This document shows positions 2,038 to 36,778 of a stretch of 64,000 bases of DNA, one piece after another. Positions within the stretch are counted from its first letter, which is position 1. Every line of letters starts with the position of its first letter. The position numbers and the translations under genes are program-made. Source of the stretch: Sphingomonas sp. EC-HK361 (GTDB lineage Bacteria; Pseudomonadota; Alphaproteobacteria; Sphingomonadales; Sphingomonadaceae); contig NZ_LR701494.1 of assembly GCF_902498785.1 (NCBI RefSeq), forward strand, positions 805,022 through 869,021, given 5' to 3'. The notes beneath the pieces are model-generated. The model ran no database searches and was not told where the DNA came from. It saw only the letters and a program-made list of their open reading frames with translations.

Positions 2038-2058
2038 AAATTTGATCCAGCGGCTACC

Positions 2059-2136
2059 GTGCTCCCGCGCAGGCGGGAGCCCAGAGTTACCGACCACGAC
2101 GCTCGCGGCTCTGGGCTCCCGCCTGCGCGGGAGCAC
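2059..2136. repeat. REP-like palindrome with perfect 28-bp arms
   Basis: The arms at 2059-2086 and 2109-2136 are exact reverse complements separated by 22 nt. The core is GCTCCCGCGCAGGCGGGAGC, so each arm also folds on itself. It sits between convergent genes and overlaps the 3' end of the small ORF that ends at 2087. The same family recurs at 8914, 10231 and 34795 with sequence variation. Confidence 0.9.
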
Positions 2137-2314
2137 TGTCCTTACGGTGCACCAAGACCTGGTTGCCCATGACATCGGGTCGATCCTCACGCCCCGCCCC
2201 TCCTCGCGCCGCAGCCAGCGCCCGTTGCATCCGCCGCCAGATCGACAGGTTGAACATCGCCAGCGCAAACACCGCCAGCACAGTGATCGCAATAACCTTG
2301 GCCGTGCCGGACAT
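2087..2314 (-). CDS. Small single-pass membrane protein downstream of dxs, repeat-derived C-terminus
   Basis: The 75-residue frame starts 5 nt after the dxs stop. Its N-terminus is one hydrophobic helix (KVIAITVLAVFALAMFNLSIW), followed by a basic patch (RRMQRALAAAR) and a polar tail. I do not recognise the family. The last 20 or so residues are encoded by the palindromic repeat at 2059-2136, so the native stop has probably been replaced by sequence read through the repeat. Close spacing suggests cotranscription and coupled translation with dxs, but nothing links the function to isoprenoid synthesis. Confidence 0.55.
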   Translation of the reverse strand: MSGTAKVIAITVLAVFALAMFNLSIWRRMQRALAAARGGAGREDRPDVMGNQVLVHRKDSAPAQAGAQSRERRGR

Positions 2315-8886: not shown

Positions 8887-8913
8887 CGCGCGTAACAGTA
8901 GATTGAAACCAAT

Positions 8914-8966
8914 GTATCCCCGCGAAGGCGGGGATCCAGACTGGGCTCCCGCCTTCGCGGGAGCAC
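8914..8966. repeat. REP-like palindrome between convergent genes
   Basis: Left arm TATCCCCGCGAAGGCGGGGA and right arm GCTCCCGCCTTCGCGGGAGC each fold on themselves and pair with each other with a few mismatches. The element lies between the oxidoreductase and rimM stops and could act as a bidirectional transcript end. Confidence 0.85.
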
Positions 8967-9004
8967 ATAAAAGCGGCCTATCGGACTGTCAGTTTAACTG
9001 AAGA

Positions 9005-10205: not shown

Positions 10206-10230
10206 TGGTGTTTTCTTCCTTCTTCTCAAT

Positions 10231-10325
10231 CGTCACCCCAGCGAAGGCTGGGGTCTATCTCTGGTTGAACAACGCGTGCCTCTCATGATGAAGAGACATG
10301 GACCCCAGCCTTCGCTGGGGTGACG
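10231..10325. repeat. REP-like palindrome with perfect 25-bp arms
   Basis: Arms at 10231-10255 and 10301-10325 are exact reverse complements (core CCCCAGCGAAGGCTGGGG) around a 45-nt loop. It lies between ffh and rpsP, within what may be one transcript. Confidence 0.9.
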
Positions 10326-10328
10326 AAC

Positions 10329-30300: not shown

Positions 30301-30739
30301 GCACCGCGCGATCCTCAGCACGCGCAAACCTGCCGGTCTCGCCTATGTCGGCCTGCCGCAGGCGTGGGTGTTCCAGATCGTCTTCGCCGCGATCTCGCCG
30401 GTCATCGATCTCGCGCTTGCGCTCTCGATCATCGGCACCGCGGTGCGGATCGCGCAGCATGGCTGGGCGCAGACGCAGACCGACGTGATCCAGATGGGCG
30501 TCTACTGGATCGCCTTTACCGCAATCGACGTCATCTGCGGCTGGATCGCCTACCGGCTGGAACCGCGCGAGAAGCGCTACCCTGCGCATCTGCTCGTCGC
30601 GCAGCGCTTCGTCTATCGCCAGCTCATGTATTGGGTGGTGCTGAAGGCGATCGGGGCCGCGGTCGGCGGCAAGGGTCAGGGTTGGGGCACGCTGGAACGT
30701 TCAGGAAGGGTCGCTGCCCCGGCCACGGCTACACCGTAA
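27383..30739 (+). CDS. Trimodular GH18-like / polysaccharide deacetylase / GT2 membrane protein
   Basis: This 1118-residue fusion starts at GTG with an N-terminal membrane helix (residues 18-40). A GH18-like domain spans about residues 90-400, with the acidic motif DFED at 203-206. A CE4/NodB deacetylase spans about 455-690: TFDDGP with Asp470/471, HSYTH (His521, His525), RAPYF and LLHDGG. After a helix near 700-725 comes a processive GT2 domain: VSVIIPAYNE from 747, VADDGSKDG, LDADT near 830, AEDQDL near 922 and QRFRW near 959. C-terminal membrane helices follow. By analogy with PgaB/PgaC it could make, deacetylate and trim a beta-linked hexosamine polymer in one chain. That role is inferred. 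Confidence 0.88.
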   Translation: MTKPIFFDPTGARKRWSLRGVLLLIAAIVVASGVFATTIIAVPAGEPLPIRYEARQPLPLKAQVAAIGHRLRGGLRAIGWLPAHPKVKPGAALTVGFYVPWDDASRASLSAHMGQLDWVVPSTMTIEGPNHGLIHTPDVAFERILAGSIRHPAVLPMVQNMANGKWDGAGAAQMLASPAARQKLIADLGAELTRLKAAGAVFDFEDMPRASLPAYASFLRQANLAFNRQHLLVTATVPAGDPDWNLPLFAAATDKLFLMAYDEHWQGGTAGPIASQPWFVAQLRSAIRTIGRDKLIVAFGSYGYDWHGGQVDALTAEEAWLAAHDSGTPITFDPTSGNSHFAYSDDDGAHDVWMLDAASAWNELAATRALGLSGVALWRLGSEDPGVWDDLASWRTGARPDLTRVSPIGNVDVEGNGEILRIAATPTDGARQVTFDARGLIRDQRFTALPTPYIVEKTGARDRQIALTFDDGPDADWTPKILDILKAKQVPATFFIVGENGLAHPLILRRIVDQGSAIGNHSYTHPNMAESSPTSVGLELNATQRLIEAYTGRSTRLFRAPYFGDAEPTTPDELNPALIAQEHGYTVVGLHVDPDDWKRPGVDAIVNRAIAQVLAGQPGADVDNRSGNIILLHDGGGDRSQTVAALPRIIDGLRARGYHFVPVATLAGLTPSQVMPPVSGADLAAVRADVGVFAILAGIVWLLKWLFFVAISLGIARAVLMAALALRNARAERGLVPPPLAPERLVSVIIPAYNEARVIAASVTRVLASTDANIEVIVADDGSKDGTSAIIADAFGDDPRVKLLTLENGGKASALNRALIHAKGDIIVALDADTQFEAGTIAKLVRWFEDETLGAVAGNAKVGNRVNLLTRWQAVEYVTAQNLERRALARFDAVTVVPGAVGAWRRAALDSVGGYPESTLAEDQDLTIAIQRAGWEVRYDIDAVAWTESPETFRALAKQRFRWAFGTLQCLWKHRAILSTRKPAGLAYVGLPQAWVFQIVFAAISPVIDLALALSIIGTAVRIAQHGWAQTQTDVIQMGVYWIAFTAIDVICGWIAYRLEPREKRYPAHLLVAQRFVYRQLMYWVVLKAIGAAVGGKGQGWGTLERSGRVAAPATATP

Positions 30740-31079
30740 AGCTCTCCCCGCAGCCGCACGCGCCCTTCGCATTGGGGTTGGCGAAGACGAAGCCGGCGGT
30801 AAAATCGTCCTCCACCCAGTCCATCGTCGATCCGATGAGGTAGAGGATCGATCCGCCGTCGACGAACAGCGTGCCGCCCGGCGTGTCGATGCGTTCGTCG
30901 AATGCGGCGGCGTCGCTCACGTAGTCGACCGAATAGGCGAGCCCCGAACAGCCCCGCCGCGGCGTCGAGAGCTTGACCCCGATCGCCCCTTCCGGCGCCC
31001 GCGCCATCAGCGCCGCAATCCGCGCCTCGGCGGCGGGGGTGAGGATCAGCGCCTTTGGTCGCTCGCGGGTCGTGGTCAT
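30729..31079 (-). CDS. sufA: A-type Fe-S carrier (SufA/ErpA-like)
   Basis: This 116-residue HesB/IscA-family protein holds or transfers Fe-S clusters. It starts TTTRERPKALILTPAAEARI, and the cluster Cys residues are in RRGCSGLAY and GACGCGES. It is the last gene of the suf operon, behind sufT and a palindromic repeat. Its stop overlaps the 3' end of the convergent fusion gene by 11 bp. SufA is chosen from context; ErpA or IscA naming is equally possible. Confidence 0.92.
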   Translation of the reverse strand: MTTTRERPKALILTPAAEARIAALMARAPEGAIGVKLSTPRRGCSGLAYSVDYVSDAAAFDERIDTPGGTLFVDGGSILYLIGSTMDWVEDDFTAGFVFANPNAKGACGCGESFTV

Positions 31080-31088
31080 ATCGAAACT

Positions 31089-31166
31089 TCCGTTCGTCCT
31101 GAGCGAAGTCGAAGGACCTGCGGGGGAGAACGATGACGTGCTTCGACTTCGCTCAGCACAAACGGA
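31089..31166. repeat. REP-like palindrome between sufT and sufA
   Basis: Arms of 29 bp (31089-31117 and 31138-31166) match with a few changes around CTGAGCGAAGTCGAAGGAC. This is the same family as 4879 and 5934. It separates two genes of one operon and may process the transcript or weaken expression of the distal gene. Confidence 0.85.
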
Positions 31167-31182
31167 GTGATGTTGGTGGCCA

Positions 31183-31653
31183 TCACAGCATTCCGAGTTC
31201 CAGCCGCGCCTCGTCGGACATCTTCGCCGGATCCCAGGGCGGGTCCCAGACGAGATTGACGTCCGCAAAGGCGATCCCCGGCACCGCGGCGACGCGCATC
31301 TCGACCTCGCCCGGCATCGATTCCGCCACCGGACAGTGCGGTGTCGTCAGCGTCATGGTGATGGTCGCGTGCCCGTCATCGGTCACATCCACGCCGTAGA
31401 TCAGCCCGAGGTCATAGATGTTCACCGGGATTTCGGGATCGAAGATGTCCTTCAGCGCTGCGATTACCGCCTCGTACAGGTCGCCGCCGGGCGCGCCGGG
31501 CGCGTCGCTGGCTGGCTTCTGCTTCAGGAACCCTTCGAGATAGTCGCGCTTCCGCGCGAATGTTTCGCCCGCCGTCTCCGCCGCATCGTCCACGCGGGCG
31601 CGCGGCGGCTGGTCCACCACATCGACTTCTTCCACCCGGATCGCCTCACTCAT
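31183..31653 (-). CDS. sufT: SufT / MIP18 family Fe-S assembly protein
   Basis: The 156-residue protein has an acidic linker of about 65 residues and then a DUF59/MIP18 domain: AVIAALKDIFDPEIPVNIYD, LGLIYGVDV, MTLTTPHCPVAESMP and LVWDPPWDPAKMSDEAR. SufT proteins help Fe-S maturation. The Cys in PHCP is the conserved one. The gene lies 10 nt after sufS. An in-frame ATG at 31671 overlaps the sufS end; ATG 31653 is more likely. Confidence 0.92.
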   Translation of the reverse strand: MSEAIRVEEVDVVDQPPRARVDDAAETAGETFARKRDYLEGFLKQKPASDAPGAPGGDLYEAVIAALKDIFDPEIPVNIYDLGLIYGVDVTDDGHATITMTLTTPHCPVAESMPGEVEMRVAAVPGIAFADVNLVWDPPWDPAKMSDEARLELGML

Positions 31654-31663
31654 CCGAAAATCC

Positions 31664-32974
31664 CTACCCAAAAATCCGCGTCACGCGCGCCACGCCGCGC
31701 ACCAGCGCATCAATGTCCTGCGAGCCGTTATAGACGCCGAAGCTCGCCCGCGCGGTCGCCTCCACGCCGAGCGCCGCCATCAGCGGCTGCGCGCAGTGGT
31801 GGCCGGCGCGGATCGCGACCCGTTCCTCGTCCAATATGGTCGCGACGTCATGGGGATGCACCCCCTTGACCGCAAAACTCACGATCCCCGCCGCATCGTC
31901 CGGGCCGAACAGCCGCACTGAATTGATCTGCGACAGCGCATCGCGCGCCTGGCGGACCAGCGCGGTTTCGTGCGCATGGATGCGGTCAAGCCCAAGTCCC
32001 GCGACATAGTCGATCGCCGTGTGCAGCCCGAGCGCACCGACGATATGGGGCGTCCCCGCCTCGAACCGCCCTGGCGGCGGCGCATAGGTCGTTTTCTCGA
32101 ACGTGACGCGGTCGATCATCGATCCGCCACCTTGCCAGGGCGGCATCGCCTCCAGCAATTCGGGCCGCGCCCAGAGCACGCCGATACCGGTCGGGCCATA
32201 GAGCTTGTGCCCCGAAAACACGTAGAAATCACAATCGAGTTCCGCCACGTCCACCGCGATCCGCGGCACCGCCTGACAGCCGTCGAGCAGCAGCTTCGCC
32301 CCCACGCCGTGCGCCAGCGCCGCCGCACGGCGCGCATCGAGCACCGAACCCAGCACGTTCGAGACATGCGCGAACGCGACGAGCTTGTGCCGCGGCGTCA
32401 GCATCGCTTCGATCGCGTTGAAGTCGATCCGGCCGTCATCGGTCAACGGCGCGACATCGATCGCGGCGCCGATCCGCTCCGCGACCATCTGCCACGGCAC
32501 GATGTTCGAATGATGCTCCAGCGTCGAAAGCAGGATGCGGTCGCCGGCCTCGAGGTGAGTCGCGGCCCAGCTCTGCGCGACGAGATTGATCCCCTCGGTC
32601 GCACCGCGCACGAAGACGATCTCGTCGGGTGATCCGGCGCCGATGAACTCAGCCACCCGCCGCCGCGCCGCCTCATAGGCCAGCGTCATCTCGGCCGAGC
32701 GCTGATATACACCGCGGTGAACGGTAGCGTAGGTCTCGCCGTAAGCGCGCGTGATTGCATCGACGACGATCTGCGGCTTCTGCGCGGTCGCCGCGGTATC
32801 GAGATAGGCCCAGCCCGCGGGAATTGCGGGGAAGTCGGCGAGGGTGTCGAGAGCCTCCCCTCCCTCGAAAGGAGGGGTTTGGGGTGGGTTGTCGGCGAGG
32901 GAACGCCCGGCCTCGAACCGACCCACCCCCGGCCCCTCCCTTCCAGGGAGGGGAGAAACCACGCCTTCACTCAC
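31664..32974 (-). CDS. sufS: Cysteine desulfurase SufS with repeat-encoded N-terminus
   Basis: This 436-residue PLP enzyme removes sulfur from cysteine for Fe-S cluster assembly. Family motifs include YLDTAATAQKP, VFVRGATEGINLVAQSW, LEHHSNIVPW, the PLP Lys in FSGHKLYGPTGIGVL, RAGHHCAQP with the sulfur-carrying Cys, and TARASFGVYN. The GTG start overlaps the sufD stop (GTGA). Residues 7-40 or so are encoded by a palindromic repeat of the CTCCCCTCCC family, which makes the protein about 30 residues longer than typical SufS (405-410). Confidence 0.93.
   Translation of the reverse strand: MSEGVVSPLPGREGPGVGRFEAGRSLADNPPQTPPFEGGEALDTLADFPAIPAGWAYLDTAATAQKPQIVVDAITRAYGETYATVHRGVYQRSAEMTLAYEAARRRVAEFIGAGSPDEIVFVRGATEGINLVAQSWAATHLEAGDRILLSTLEHHSNIVPWQMVAERIGAAIDVAPLTDDGRIDFNAIEAMLTPRHKLVAFAHVSNVLGSVLDARRAAALAHGVGAKLLLDGCQAVPRIAVDVAELDCDFYVFSGHKLYGPTGIGVLWARPELLEAMPPWQGGGSMIDRVTFEKTTYAPPPGRFEAGTPHIVGALGLHTAIDYVAGLGLDRIHAHETALVRQARDALSQINSVRLFGPDDAAGIVSFAVKGVHPHDVATILDEERVAIRAGHHCAQPLMAALGVEATARASFGVYNGSQDIDALVRGVARVTRIFG
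32855..32955. repeat. REP-like palindrome inside the sufS reading frame
   Basis: The left arm begins CTCCCCTCCCTCGAAAGGAG and the right arm ends CCTTCCAGGGAGGGGAG. They pair over about 45 bp with some mismatches, through GGGGTGGGTT/GACCCACCCC and CGAGG/CCTCG segments. The whole unit is read in frame as Pro/Gly-rich residues of the SufS N-terminus. It is related to the element at 43099. Confidence 0.85.
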
Positions 32975-34053
32975 AGCGCCTTCTCCAGCCACGAATCGGC
33001 ATCCGCCTCGAACGCCGCGCGCACCGCCTCGTCGCCGATCCGCGCCAGCGAATCCGCCACGAACGCGTGGGTCAGCAGCGCCTTCGCCCGACTGTCCGGA
33101 ATGCCGCGGCTCGCCATGTAGAAAAGCGCGCGGGCATCGAGCTCCCCGACCGTCGCGCCGTGCGCGCACTTCACGTCGTCGGCAAAGATCTCGAGCTCCG
33201 GCTTCAGGTTCACCGTCGCCGTGCGTTTCAGCAGAAGACCCCGCAAAGATTGCTCGCCATCGGTCTTCTGCGCATGCCGCGCGACCTCGACCGCGGCGGC
33301 GAGGCTCACGGTGCTCGTATCGGCCGCGACCGCGCGCCAGAGCTGGTGCGACTGGCCGTTCGGCGCTGCGTGGCGGATGCGCACCGCGCATTCCTGCCGC
33401 TGATCGCCCGCGGTCAGCAGCGCGCCGCCGAATTCTGCAAAGGCGCCCTCGCCGCTTGTCGTAACCGCCGCGTCGATCCGGCTGCCCGCCTGCCCCGCGC
33501 CGAGGAACACCGCGACCAGGCTCGCCGCCTCGCCGACGTCCGCTTCCTCGCGCAGGCTCACGAAACCGCCGGCCTGGAGCATCCGCACCGATCGCATCAG
33601 CCGCGCACCGCGACCCAGCCGAAGGCGCGCGAAGCGGTTCGTCCAGCCGATGCCCAGATAGGTTTCGACGATCTCCGCCGCTGCGTCCTCCGCCAGCACG
33701 ATCTCGCAGGGTAGATGGTTCGCCCCGCCGCTCGCGACATGGACGATCTGCACCGGGTCGGCCGCCGCATCCTTGGCGAGGTCGAGCGCCCAGCCCGCAC
33801 CGCCGGCCTGCTTGCCGAGCGGATGGTCGCCACCGTCGATGGCGCGAATCGTCACACGGTGCAGATCGCTCGCGTCGCGATCGAGAACGCCATCGCGAAA
33901 CACGATCCGCGCGCCGGGGCGATCGATCCACCAACAGGCTGGGTCGGGCCGCGCCTCGCTATGCGGCAGCGCGACTGCGGCCGCGATCGCCTCCGGATCA
34001 GACCATCGCCACGCCTCCTCGCGGGTGGATGGGAGGGTGAGCGCAGCTGTCAT
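32971..34053 (-). CDS. sufD: Fe-S cluster scaffold subunit SufD
   Basis: The 360-residue SufD forms the SufBC2D scaffold with SufB and SufC. Its C-terminal beta-helix region contains LRGLLLKRTATVNLKPELEI, FADDVKCAHGATVGELD and FYMASRGIPDSRAKALLTHAF, all family signatures. The N-terminal part is variable, as usual. It overlaps sufS by GTGA and is separated from sufC by 166 nt, mostly a palindromic element. Confidence 0.95.
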   Translation of the reverse strand: MTAALTLPSTREEAWRWSDPEAIAAAVALPHSEARPDPACWWIDRPGARIVFRDGVLDRDASDLHRVTIRAIDGGDHPLGKQAGGAGWALDLAKDAAADPVQIVHVASGGANHLPCEIVLAEDAAAEIVETYLGIGWTNRFARLRLGRGARLMRSVRMLQAGGFVSLREEADVGEAASLVAVFLGAGQAGSRIDAAVTTSGEGAFAEFGGALLTAGDQRQECAVRIRHAAPNGQSHQLWRAVAADTSTVSLAAAVEVARHAQKTDGEQSLRGLLLKRTATVNLKPELEIFADDVKCAHGATVGELDARALFYMASRGIPDSRAKALLTHAFVADSLARIGDEAVRAAFEADADSWLEKAL

Positions 34054-34076: not shown

Positions 34077-34210
34077 TTCACGCGGAGGCGCGGAGACGCG
34101 GAGTGACCGCGCTTCTCCGCGCCAAAGGCGCAGCAATGTGCGCACGAAGACCCAAAGCCTCTTCTGCGGCTGCGCCGCGTCTTCTCCGCGTCTCCGCGCC
34201 TCCGCGTGAA
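34077..34210. repeat. Palindromic element with perfect 27-bp arms between sufC and sufD
   Basis: Arms 34077-34103 and 34184-34210 are exact reverse complements (core ACGCGGAGGCGCGGAGACGC). The 80-nt centre has further GCGCCAAAGGCGC and CTGCGGCTGCGCCGCG foldbacks. It fills nearly the whole sufC-sufD spacer, where most suf operons have only a few bases. This is a family distinct from the other repeats in the window. Confidence 0.9.
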
Positions 34211-34219
34211 CCAACGCCT

Positions 34220-35047
34220 TCACGCCGCCACCTCTGCATAGCCTTCACGCTCCAACCGGTGCGCCAGTTCCGCCCCGCCCGTCCGCGTGATCCGTCCACC
34301 GTCGAGCACATGGACGAAATCCGGCTTCACATAATCGAGCAGCCGCTGGTAATGCGTGATCAGCAGCACTGCCTTGTCGGGCGCGCGCATGATCCGGTTG
34401 ATGCCGTCGCCGACGACACGGAGCGCATCGATGTCCAGCCCGCTGTCGGTCTCGTCGAGGATCGCGAAGCGGGGGTCGATGACGCCCATCTGGACCATCT
34501 CGTTGCGCTTCTTCTCGCCGCCGGAGAAGCCGACATTGACCGGGCGCTTGAGCATCTCGGCATCCATGTCGAGCTTGCGCGCTTCCTCGCGCGCGAGCTT
34601 CAGGAACTCGCCGCCGGACAGCGGCTTCTCATCCCGCGAGACGCGCTGCGCGTTGAGCGCCTCGCGCAGGAACTGGACGTTGGAGACGCCGGGAATTTCG
34701 ACAGGATACTGGAAGCCGAGGAAAACCCCCGCCGCCGCGCGCTCATGCGGTTCGAGCGCGAGGAGGTCGATCCACTCGCTTCCCACCTCATCACCACCCC
34801 GGCGAAGGCCGGGGTCCAGTTGCGAGCCGTCCGATCCTGGGCCCCGGCCTTCGCCGGGGTGGAAGAGAACGGAACCCTCCGTCACCTCATACCCAGGCCG
34901 CCCACCGAGCACATACCCAAGCGTCGACTTCCCCGCCCCGTTGGGCCCCATGATCGCGTGCACCTCCCCCGCGTTCACGGTGAGCGAGAGGCCCTTGAGG
35001 ATCGGCTTGCCGTCGATCTCGGCGTGGAGGTTTTCAATCTTGAGCAT
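34220..35047 (-). CDS. sufC: Fe-S assembly ATPase SufC with an in-frame palindromic insertion
   Basis: This 275-residue ABC ATPase of the SufBCD complex has Walker A in MGPNGAGKSTLGYVLGG (about residues 33-49), the Q-loop in FQYPVEIPGV, signature LSGGEFLK and FSGGEKKRNEMVQMG, and Walker B with DETDSGLDIDALR. Between Walker A and the Q-loop, at about residues 63-90, lies HPGEGRGPGSDGS...LRRGGDEVGSE, which ordinary SufC (about 250 residues) lacks. It is encoded by a REP-like palindrome. Catalytic motifs are intact, so it is probably functional. ATG 35047 (MLKIENL) is preferred; ATG 35053 is possible. Confidence 0.93.
   Translation of the reverse strand: MLKIENLHAEIDGKPILKGLSLTVNAGEVHAIMGPNGAGKSTLGYVLGGRPGYEVTEGSVLFHPGEGRGPGSDGSQLDPGLRRGGDEVGSEWIDLLALEPHERAAAGVFLGFQYPVEIPGVSNVQFLREALNAQRVSRDEKPLSGGEFLKLAREEARKLDMDAEMLKRPVNVGFSGGEKKRNEMVQMGVIDPRFAILDETDSGLDIDALRVVGDGINRIMRAPDKAVLLITHYQRLLDYVKPDFVHVLDGGRITRTGGAELAHRLEREGYAEVAA
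34795..34862. repeat. REP-like palindrome inserted in frame within sufC
   Basis: Left arm CACCCCGGCGAAGGCCGGGG (34795 onward) and right arm CCCCGGCCTTCGCCGGGGTG (to about 34861) pair around a short loop. They are flanked by TCCAG/CTGGG-type bases, as in the intergenic copies at 8914 and 10231. The length keeps the sufC frame open. It adds about 26 codons between the Walker A and Q-loop regions. Confidence 0.9.
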
Positions 35048-35309
35048 CTTCATCTTTCTTGAGCGCCACGATGATCTGCGTAGCTCGATCATTTGCGATG
35101 GCTGCATCTTCCGACGAAATCGTCGGCGCCACGTGCGGACCAACCTCACGCAAAATGCGCTGCCGCCAGTTCTCCAGGCGAGCATCAGCGAAAGTGTGGT
35201 TTTCGAAATCATCCCACTCGTAAGGAGCCAGCCCGGGCGCTCGCCCGAAAAACCGCTCCAGCATTGCTGCAATGTCGGCGGTGGTCGAAAGGCGAGGGCT
35301 GGCACTCAA
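35034..35309 (-). CDS. Small uncharacterised protein encoded between sufB and sufC
   Basis: The 91-residue frame starts at TTG 35309, overlapping the sufB stop (TTGA), and ends inside the first codons of sufC. Both ends thus look translationally coupled. The sequence ([20 protein letters not shown], then [20 protein letters not shown]) is soluble and charged, predicted mainly helical. I do not recognise a family. A later ATG at 35264 is an alternative start. Position implies a part in Fe-S assembly, but there is no direct evidence. Confidence 0.6.
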
Positions 35310-36778
35310 CCGACACTCCCTTCAAGCGAAATCCCGAGCAGCTTCTGCGCCTCGACCGCAAACTCCATCGGCAGCTGCTGCAACACCTCTCGCGCGAAGC
35401 CATTGACGATCAGCGCCACCGCCGCCTCCGAATCCAGCCCGCGCGACATCGCGTAGAACATCTGGTCTTCGCTGATCTTCGAGGTCGTCGCTTCATGCTC
35501 GATCTGCGCGGACGGGTTGCGCACCTCGATATACGGCACGGTATGTGCGCCGCACTGGTCGCCGAGCAGCAAGCTGTCGCACTGGGTGAAATTGCGCACG
35601 CCCTCCGCGGTCGGCGCCACGCGCACCAGCCCGCGATAGGTGTTGTCGCTGCGCCCTGCCGAGATCCCCTTCGACACGATCGTCGATTTCGTGTTCTTGC
35701 CGAGATGGATCATCTTGGTGCCGGTATCGGCCTGCTGGCGGTTGTTCGTCACCGCGACCGAGTAGAACTCGCCGACCGATCCATCTCCCGCCAGCACACA
35801 GCTCGGATATTTCCACGTGATCGCGGAGCCAGTCTCGACCTGCGTCCACGACACCTTGCTGTTCCGCCCCTGGCACAGCGCGCGCTTGGTGACGAAATTA
35901 TAGATGCCGCCGACGCCGTTCTCGTCGCCGGGATACCAGTTCTGGACGGTCGAATATTTGATCTCGGCATCGTCCAGCGCGACCAGTTCCACCACCGCGG
36001 CGTGCAGCTGATTCTCGTCGCGCATCGGCGCGGTGCAGCCTTCGAGGTAGCTGACGTAAGCGCCCTTGTCGGCGACGATCAGCGTGCGCTCGAACTGCCC
36101 GGTATTTTCGGCATTGATGCGGAAGTAGGTCGACAACTCCATCGGGCAACGAACGCCTTCGGGGATGTAGACGAAGGTCCCGTCGCTGAAGACCGCGCTG
36201 TTCAGCGTCGCGAAGTAGTTGTCGCGCTGCGGCACGACCTTGCCGAGCCATTTGCGGACGAGATCGGGATATTCCCTGATCGCCTCGCTGATCGAACGGA
36301 AGATGACCCCCGCCGCCTCCAGTTCCTTGCGGAAGGTCGTCGCGACCGAAACCGAATCGAACACCGCGTCCACCGCGACACGGCGCGGCGGCGTGCCGCC
36401 CTCGACGCCCGCGAGCAGCTTCTGCTCCTCGATCGGAATGCCAAGCTTTTCGTAGACACGCAAAATCTCGGGATCGACCTCGTCCAGCGACCCCAACTTC
36501 GGCTTCGCCTTCGGCTCCGCGTAGTAATAGGCGTCCTGATAATCGATCGGCGGAATGGCGAGCTTCGCCCAGTCCGGCGGCGTCATCGTGAGCCACAGGC
36601 GATACGCCTTCAGCCGCCAGTCGAGCATCCATTCGGGCTCGCCCTTCTTGGCGCTGATGTAGCGGACGGTATCCTCGCTCAACCCCTTGGGCGCGAATTC
36701 CTGCTCGATGTCGGAGGAGAAACCCCATTCATAGGTCTTGGCGACCGCGGCATGGGCTTCTGCGTTCTTCGTCGCCAT
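35306..36778 (-). CDS. sufB: Fe-S cluster scaffold subunit SufB
   Basis: The 490-residue SufB is the cluster-holding subunit of SufBC2D. Blocks such as [80 protein letters not shown] and [20 protein letters not shown] are typical. ATG 36778 overlaps the regulator's stop (TAATG). The frame continues upstream to 36877 only through the regulator gene. It is the first structural gene of the operon. Confidence 0.97.

Follow-up and report, generated by a model that had tools for sequence, protein, structure and literature searches.

Recurrent in-frame occupation of a single SufC site by palindromic repeats in the Sphingomonadales

Introduction

The sufC gene of Sphingomonas sp. EC-HK361 is read in frame through a palindromic repeat, and the locus raises the question of how repetitive DNA comes to lie within a conserved housekeeping gene, how often it has done so at the same place, and what becomes of the peptide that it encodes. 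Protein-coding palindromes have so far been best known from Rickettsia, together with scattered REP cases. Rickettsial palindromic elements (RPE) are described, in the accessible text of PMC2229807, as lying in frame within conserved genes whose products tolerate them, guanylate kinase among them. The GTAG/CGTC-tagged REPs, according to the accessible text of Di Nocera et al. (2013; PMC3733652), are small palindromes occurring chiefly as head-to-head dimers, and those of the CGTC type are mostly alphaproteobacterial and have no associated transposase gene. More than half of the REPs located within ORFs are dimers or groups encoding 20-30 amino acids, and REP-bearing tRNA synthetases are named for E. 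litoralis and S. alaskensis. In-frame REPs are hence already known, sphingomonads included, and the first-pass annotation, which held that an in-frame element would be notable in a sphingomonad, is not supported on the point of novelty, given the intragenic REPs reported for these two species (PMC3733652).

Results

A palindrome read in frame within sufC

The window analyzed here, a stretch of 64,000 nucleotides, contains a sufC gene flanked by sufB and sufD (Table 1). The first-pass annotation had placed a REP-like palindrome in frame within this gene, which is borne out by the inverted repeat, its fold stability and the open frame. Arms of 26 nt each (34794-34819 and 34837-34862) are 96% complementary, and 87% complementary when stretched to 31 nt. 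The RNA fold of the palindrome reaches -65.5 kcal/mol (z -7.7), whereas its dinucleotide shuffles lie at -38.9 (sd 3.45), and none of 200 matched its stability. The frame of sufC is open throughout the palindrome. The encoded protein scores 320.8 bits as a SufC (family cut-off 212.8) and, as the annotation had stated, retains the ATPase motifs, with GPNGAGKS, SGGE and QYPVE all found in its sequence. The annotation had also counted about 26 extra residues; the insert exists, but the net gain amounts to 28, because its 31 residues stand where 82 of the 118 orthologues compared have three.

Table 1. Coordinates of the suf genes and of the palindromes typed in the window
Feature	Position	Strand	Remarks
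Palindrome, related subfamily	2056..2139	.	outside ORFs of at least 100 aa
Palindrome, related subfamily	8912..8968	.	outside ORFs of at least 100 aa
Inverted REP pair, subfamily of the SufC copy	10230..10326	.	CGTC at both ends; outside ORFs of at least 100 aa
sufD	32971..34053	-	tree input
Palindrome of another family	34077..34210	.	sufC-sufD spacer
sufC, Fe-S cluster assembly ATPase with in-frame insert	34220..35047	-	275 aa; TIGR01978, PF00005
Insert of 31 codons (residues 63-93), replacing a three-residue turn	34769..34861	-	118 distinct SufC compared
REP-type palindrome, inverted arms 34794-34824 and 34832-34862	34794..34862	.	repeat search, folding, consensus match
sufB, start set at MATKNAEAH	35306..36778	-	tree input

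An AlphaFold2 model built from 38 SufC sequences, those of the window and of named relatives, had a mean pLDDT of 85.2 and a pTM of 0.84. In agreement with the surface-loop position expected beforehand, residues 68-89 fall below a pLDDT of 50 and are flanked by two modelled strands, one at 53-62 and one of only two residues at 93-94. The model predicts an intact SufC ATPase with residues 68-89 disordered at the tip of a hairpin. Hairpins of this kind in ABC ATPases sit away from the nucleotide site.

Relatives of the element within the window

The annotation had assigned the SufC palindrome and three intergenic copies to one family. The copy at 10230-10326 does belong to the same subfamily: both of its arms equal the typed consensus exactly, and the SufC copy has one arm that fits this consensus with two mismatches, chance alone being expected to give no such match. 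Those at 2056-2139 and 8912-8968, which have one arm in common and a similar build, are here counted as relatives only, without a match to the consensus within three mismatches. Within the window, the element shows the repeated stem-loop and head-to-head pairing that characterize REPs. The SufC copy does not show the CGTC end, one arm having CACC and the other differing from the consensus by more than three mismatches; judged by its tag, it is a degenerate relative of the CGTC-tagged repeats.

Hairpins with a stem of at least 16 number 12 in the window; three single-base shuffles yielded 1, 1 and 3. Half of them (6/12) fall within some ORF of at least 100 aa, and among the strong REP-like hairpins only that of SufC is clearly intragenic.

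Other features were noted around the locus. A palindrome of another family (32855-32955) separates sufD from the conserved part of sufS, and the sufS frame passes through it; sufS may start after this palindrome or have a repeat-derived N-terminus. A palindrome resembling class C (see below) lies at 31089-31166, immediately 5' of the SufA-like (Fe-S_biosyn) part of the ORF at 30729-31268, and between sufB and sufC (35034-35309) there is an ORF of 91 aa that matches no Pfam family. At 914-1183, a perfect 25-bp inverted repeat with arms 220 bp apart encloses two more hairpins and is possibly a small mobile element.

The SufC site across the order

SufC genes were gathered from a protein scan of bacterial genomes, from which the best 80 of 587 loci were used, and from a survey of an even sample of 396 genomes of the order, 392 of which had a SufC at E <= 1e-60. 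Among the matches listed, in which continuous ones rank first, 24 of the 396 genomes gave a continuous match spanning the insert. From the survey we added 22 of these 24 insert-positive genes (two were already included) and 18 insert-negative ones, and dropped three identical copies, which left 118 distinct SufC genes, the window's included. This set is non-random, having been chosen by similarity to the window and partly for the insert, and 24/396 serves as the estimate of frequency.

Between the conserved F and DLL, 34 of the 118 genes encode 27-45 residues; a further 82 have exactly three residues, and the other two have seven and nine. Each of the 34 inserts is open and has a length divisible by three; as RNA they pair at 52-80% of their bases, a range obtained without a shuffle control. 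Genes without the insert exist even among close relatives (L008, S. adhaesiva DSM 7418, with; L019, S. ginsenosidimutans, without), as the annotation had asked, and in inserted genes the three-residue turn is replaced, not retained; no target duplication was seen by eye at the SufC insert. Nor do the orthologues encode the same residues in non-palindromic codons, 82 having the short turn and the 33 other inserts being palindromic as well. An assembly artefact at sufC is unlikely, since 33 other distinct genes, from many genomes, hold in-frame palindromes at this site. In 11 genomes, ten of them inserted, the next match after SufC had an E-value of 6.7e-7 or weaker, so that no second SufC was found in them. 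In a search for spread beyond the order, 385 genomes drawn from the class yielded six SufC at E <= 1e-75, a threshold weak for distant genes, and none of the six was continuous across the insert.

The nine-residue stretch belongs to L041 (Sphingopyxis granuli), the flanks of which resemble those of inserted Sphingopyxis genes; it may be a cut-down insert, that is, a deletion scar. In L079, a 283-aa SufC reading lacks the loop insert and has its additional length elsewhere in the frame.

Insert classes, trees and resident repeats

By peptide motif, and assigned by eye, the inserts fall into seven classes: A (ERSD..LLRSARND; three inserts), B (AGLDPAS..TPDQVRGD; five inserts plus two degenerate ones like them), C (RAEPVEA..STSSGRT and variants; 13 inserts), D, that of the window (PGEGRGP..DPGLRRG and variants; six inserts), and D2, E and F (two, one and two inserts). 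Insert state changes at least 21 times on a quick SufBCD tree (with SufC taken without the insert), 22 times on a quick SufB+D tree, 21 times on the SufC core and 23 times on a careful SufB+D tree; a first quick tree, with two short rows scored as uninserted, gave 22. Taking the classes as states raises the minimum to 26-27 changes (27 on the SufB/C/D tree). A single inserted clade is rejected (p-AU 1.6e-33), and the scatter on the trees and the differing classes do not support one insertion event. We also rejected the transfer of whole inserted sufC alleles, the SufC core requiring 21 changes against 22-23 for SufB+D, with linkage extending for about 30 nt.

Resident copies of the class cores were counted in 38 genomes, 32 of which have a SufC insert. 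Carriers of class C have a median of 25 copies of its core, against three in 25 other genomes (P = 0.0009), and carriers of class B a median of 34 against zero (P = 0.006), although the two degenerate carriers have none; for class A the medians are six and one, a difference that is not significant (P = 0.08). For two of the three classes tested, the class found at the SufC site is commoner in the carrier genome. Class D cores are present in 23 of the 25 genomes counted. Mobility driven by RAYT was considered and set aside as a general link, its domain (PF01797, Y1_Tnp) being matched in only 7 of the 38 relatives.

The same pattern in GlyS-beta and ValS

A scan of 800 kb from one relative (G182) found 98 strong hairpins and 36 overlaps of hairpins with ORFs, six of which had a coding signature; two of these looked ordinary by eye, and four are inserts in three genes, namely PutA, GlyS-beta and, twice, ValS (NCBIfam names). 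GlyS-beta was then matched in 37 of 38 genomes (32 of them SufC-insert carriers), in 24 of them continuously across the insert, and the insert lies at one site in 25 of the 30 loci read. Across the order sample, the match was continuous in 117 of 392 genomes; all 42 of these loci that were read (20 + 22) are inserted, the other 75 being scored by match length. The 22 inserts read from the order sample have 59-80% of their bases paired, again without a shuffle control. In the corresponding search of the class, GlyS was matched in 3 of 372 genomes at E <= 1e-42, a threshold weak for distant genes, and all three are in the order sample too.

ValS has two such sites, of which one is filled in 14 of 30 loci and the other in 6 of 29, as read in the 30 best-matching of the 38 genomes. 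Most GlyS and ValS inserts fold well below single-base shuffles; those of L177 (GlyS), L192 (both ValS sites) and L203 are not clearly below them (z -1.8 to 0.1), and L196 and L199 are weakly so (z -2.3), which suggests that some of these may be decayed. The GlyS-beta site and the two ValS sites repeat the pattern seen in SufC. In the ValS of L205, one site apparently holds a tandem of two palindromic elements.

Residues and codons around the insert

A tryptophan occupies the second-last position, followed by I/V ahead of DLL, in 9 of 11 inserts on the Sphingomonas side, spanning four classes, and in 0 of 23 elsewhere (the side being judged by eye). The last residue is hydrophobic in 32 of 34 inserted genes against 6 of 82 uninserted ones, and proline stands at insert position 2 or 3 in 28 of 34. 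Codons near the site vary with insert state, partly synonymously, in a comparison uncorrected for relatedness. Over the first 30 nt on either side, the tie to the nearest uninserted relative is weaker than in every one of 100 control draws; beyond 30 nt there was no consistent linkage, with one distant window of 19 (R210) also giving 0/100. The tryptophan at the loop end and the state-linked codons are not predicted by simple independent insertion, and the sharing near the site could stem from exchange of the core, from a convergent structural need or from local mutation at insertion.

As a version of the reading favored below, core exchange would mean that the long loop had a single origin or a few origins, in the Sphingomonas lineage at least, that its palindromic core was swapped between families, and that short turns were restored by recombination. 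The shared loop end and the decoupled flanks favor this reading, as do the apparent tandem in ValS and the presence of classes B, D and E within one Sphingopyxis-like clade. Against it, inserted genes are scattered on the trees, that of the SufC core alone included, linkage ends at 30 nt but for R210, and every loss among the 82 uninserted rows would need to have left three residues exactly; moreover, the pyrimidine-rich outer arm may yield proline without shared descent (judged by eye), and the hydrophobic residue could reflect convergent structural need. On balance, we hold this reading at somewhat under even odds. A wider version, in which the landing loops (SufC, GlyS-beta, two in ValS and perhaps one in PutA) exchange unrelated palindromic cores through a process that recognizes palindromes or extended loops rather than sequence, producing hypervariable exposed peptides of which some are domesticated, appears doubtful.

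Hairpins along the suf locus and conservation of stems

Across the 118 loci, strong hairpins were found 15 times at the SufC site, three times elsewhere in sufC (near the filter limit), 26 times in the sufC-sufD spacer, nine times in the sufB-sufC spacer and 56 times elsewhere, under a strict filter that detects 15 of the 34 SufC inserts. None lies inside sufB (168 kb) or sufD (85 kb), one hairpin in L093 overlapping the end of sufD, and SufB and SufD gave one-piece matches in 118 and 117 of the 118 loci. With sufB and sufD empty and the spacers filled, the pattern therefore seems to be governed by tolerance of place, and not by a shortage of elements. In L229, L240 and L244 (G276, G305 and G245), a palindrome lies 3' of sufC, with a short loop common to these species.

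Codons were compared over the first 96 nt only where insert lengths differed. Class B inserts of L086, L087 and L090 have a dS of 0.06-0.08 and a dN of 0.10-0.14, in genes with a dS of 0.42-0.49 after the insert, and the class C inserts of L052 and L056 have a dS of 0.10 and a dN of 0.07; the low dS and higher dN indicate that in these inserts the stems are conserved and the peptides are not. L086, L087, L088 and L090 have a common loop, absent from all resident copies read, and so look like one insertion. Twenty resident or spacer copies of class B were fetched, 18 of them with the left arm, on which the search had been based; among the 18 the right arm is exact in eight and has one mismatch in three, two in three and four in four, against an exact right arm in five of five class B inserts in SufC. 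This uniformity of the class B stem could result from gene conversion within the family or from a role at the DNA level.

The stems, together with the hairpins crowding the sufC-sufD spacer, lend some weight to the idea that the hairpin is retained for an RNA or DNA role, such as pausing or the balance of sufC and sufD expression, with the peptide as a by-product. We regard this as improbable: 82 of the 118 SufC genes do without the hairpin, classes and stems differ, and in the Sphingopyxis D-type insert synonymous changes exceed all others.

Translation of the insert

In that D-type insert, compared among the Sphingopyxis-like L007, L009 (Sphingopyxis sp. PET50) and L085, synonymous codon changes number 9-11 and others 2-6, with a dS of 0.45-0.88 and a dN of 0.03-0.11. 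Such a low dN and high dS are as expected for a translated, constrained peptide. Other frames of the insert DNA contain stops in 69 of 170 cases, and the frame in use exceeds the 101 open alternatives in hydrophilicity (P = 0.008); the genes came from protein searches as open frames, which favors open inserts.

The low dN/dS in this one lineage, together with the hydrophobic residue and tryptophan at the loop end, might also be taken to mean that the added peptide is positively selected, for instance as a new binding surface of SufC. Given that the insert sequences are unrelated, their presence scattered and the loop disordered in the model, this is very unlikely. That the insert goes untranslated, through ribosome bypass of the hairpin or RNA processing, has a precedent in the bypassed palindromic elements of yeast mitochondria (Magnusiomyces; accessible text of PMC6649704) and is hardly credible here, with 34 of 34 inserts in frame and open, stops frequent in the other frames, a hydrophilic frame in use and a low dN/dS in the D-type insert.

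Discussion

The SufC site has been occupied recurrently in the Sphingomonadales. The reading that we favor, with a probability of roughly 0.76, is that palindromic elements repeatedly enter, or replace each other in, a few permissive loops, and that the peptide is translated and tolerated. The element would consist of two inverted REP units, in the manner of a REPIN or MITE and presumably mobile, at the tip of the SufC beta-hairpin. Elements of this type would land or be exchanged across the whole genome, selection would remove most intragenic copies, and the few exposed loops able to accept about 30 added hydrophilic residues would be refilled repeatedly. The peptide would be translated as a disordered loop, initially without a function of its own, and an old copy may come under selection at the protein level (L007, L009 and L085) or be trimmed (L041).

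A REPIN is a pair of REP units in inverted orientation, with a short spacer between them. The SufC element has the same two-unit build and differs from the REPIN/RAYT system in that PF01797 is found in 7 of 38 genomes only. It also departs from the CGTC-tagged REPs in that classes C and F have no CGTC end in the copies read (by eye). In the accessible text of PMC3733652, REPs within genes of one functional category occupy differing sites, Xanthomonas recB being the one case of a common site, whereas the Sphingomonadales use one site per loop, order-wide and with seven classes; in the main text of that paper, 'Suf' is matched solely in the word 'sufficient'. The likeness to RPE, as in-frame palindromes in conserved genes, is a likeness in kind: RPE are longer, at 105-146 bp in the accessible texts (PMC2229807, PMC6649704), and the Sphingomonadales are free-living and have several classes per site. 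Small variable segments (Touzain et al. 2010; PMC2884548) are likewise short, in frame, at a fixed locus and locally divergent; they are loci within species, and repeated order-wide capture of palindromes by a loop is absent from the accessible part of that text. In the literature searched, with subscription papers mostly outside it, we found no description of recurrent use of the same site by unrelated families.

These results suggest that a small number of exposed protein loops serve again and again as tolerated landing places for repeat DNA. When unrelated elements have filled one site many times over, the outcome amounts to a natural replicate experiment, and sites of the SufC type reveal which housekeeping-enzyme loops can take about 30 arbitrary residues. 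For annotators and modellers they are a caution, as a long, variable loop of low confidence in these proteins may derive from a repeat. Sister species that differ in the insert permit direct tests of fitness cost, and it can be traced here, in free-living, culturable bacteria, how repeat-derived peptides are gained, decay, are lost or become domesticated.
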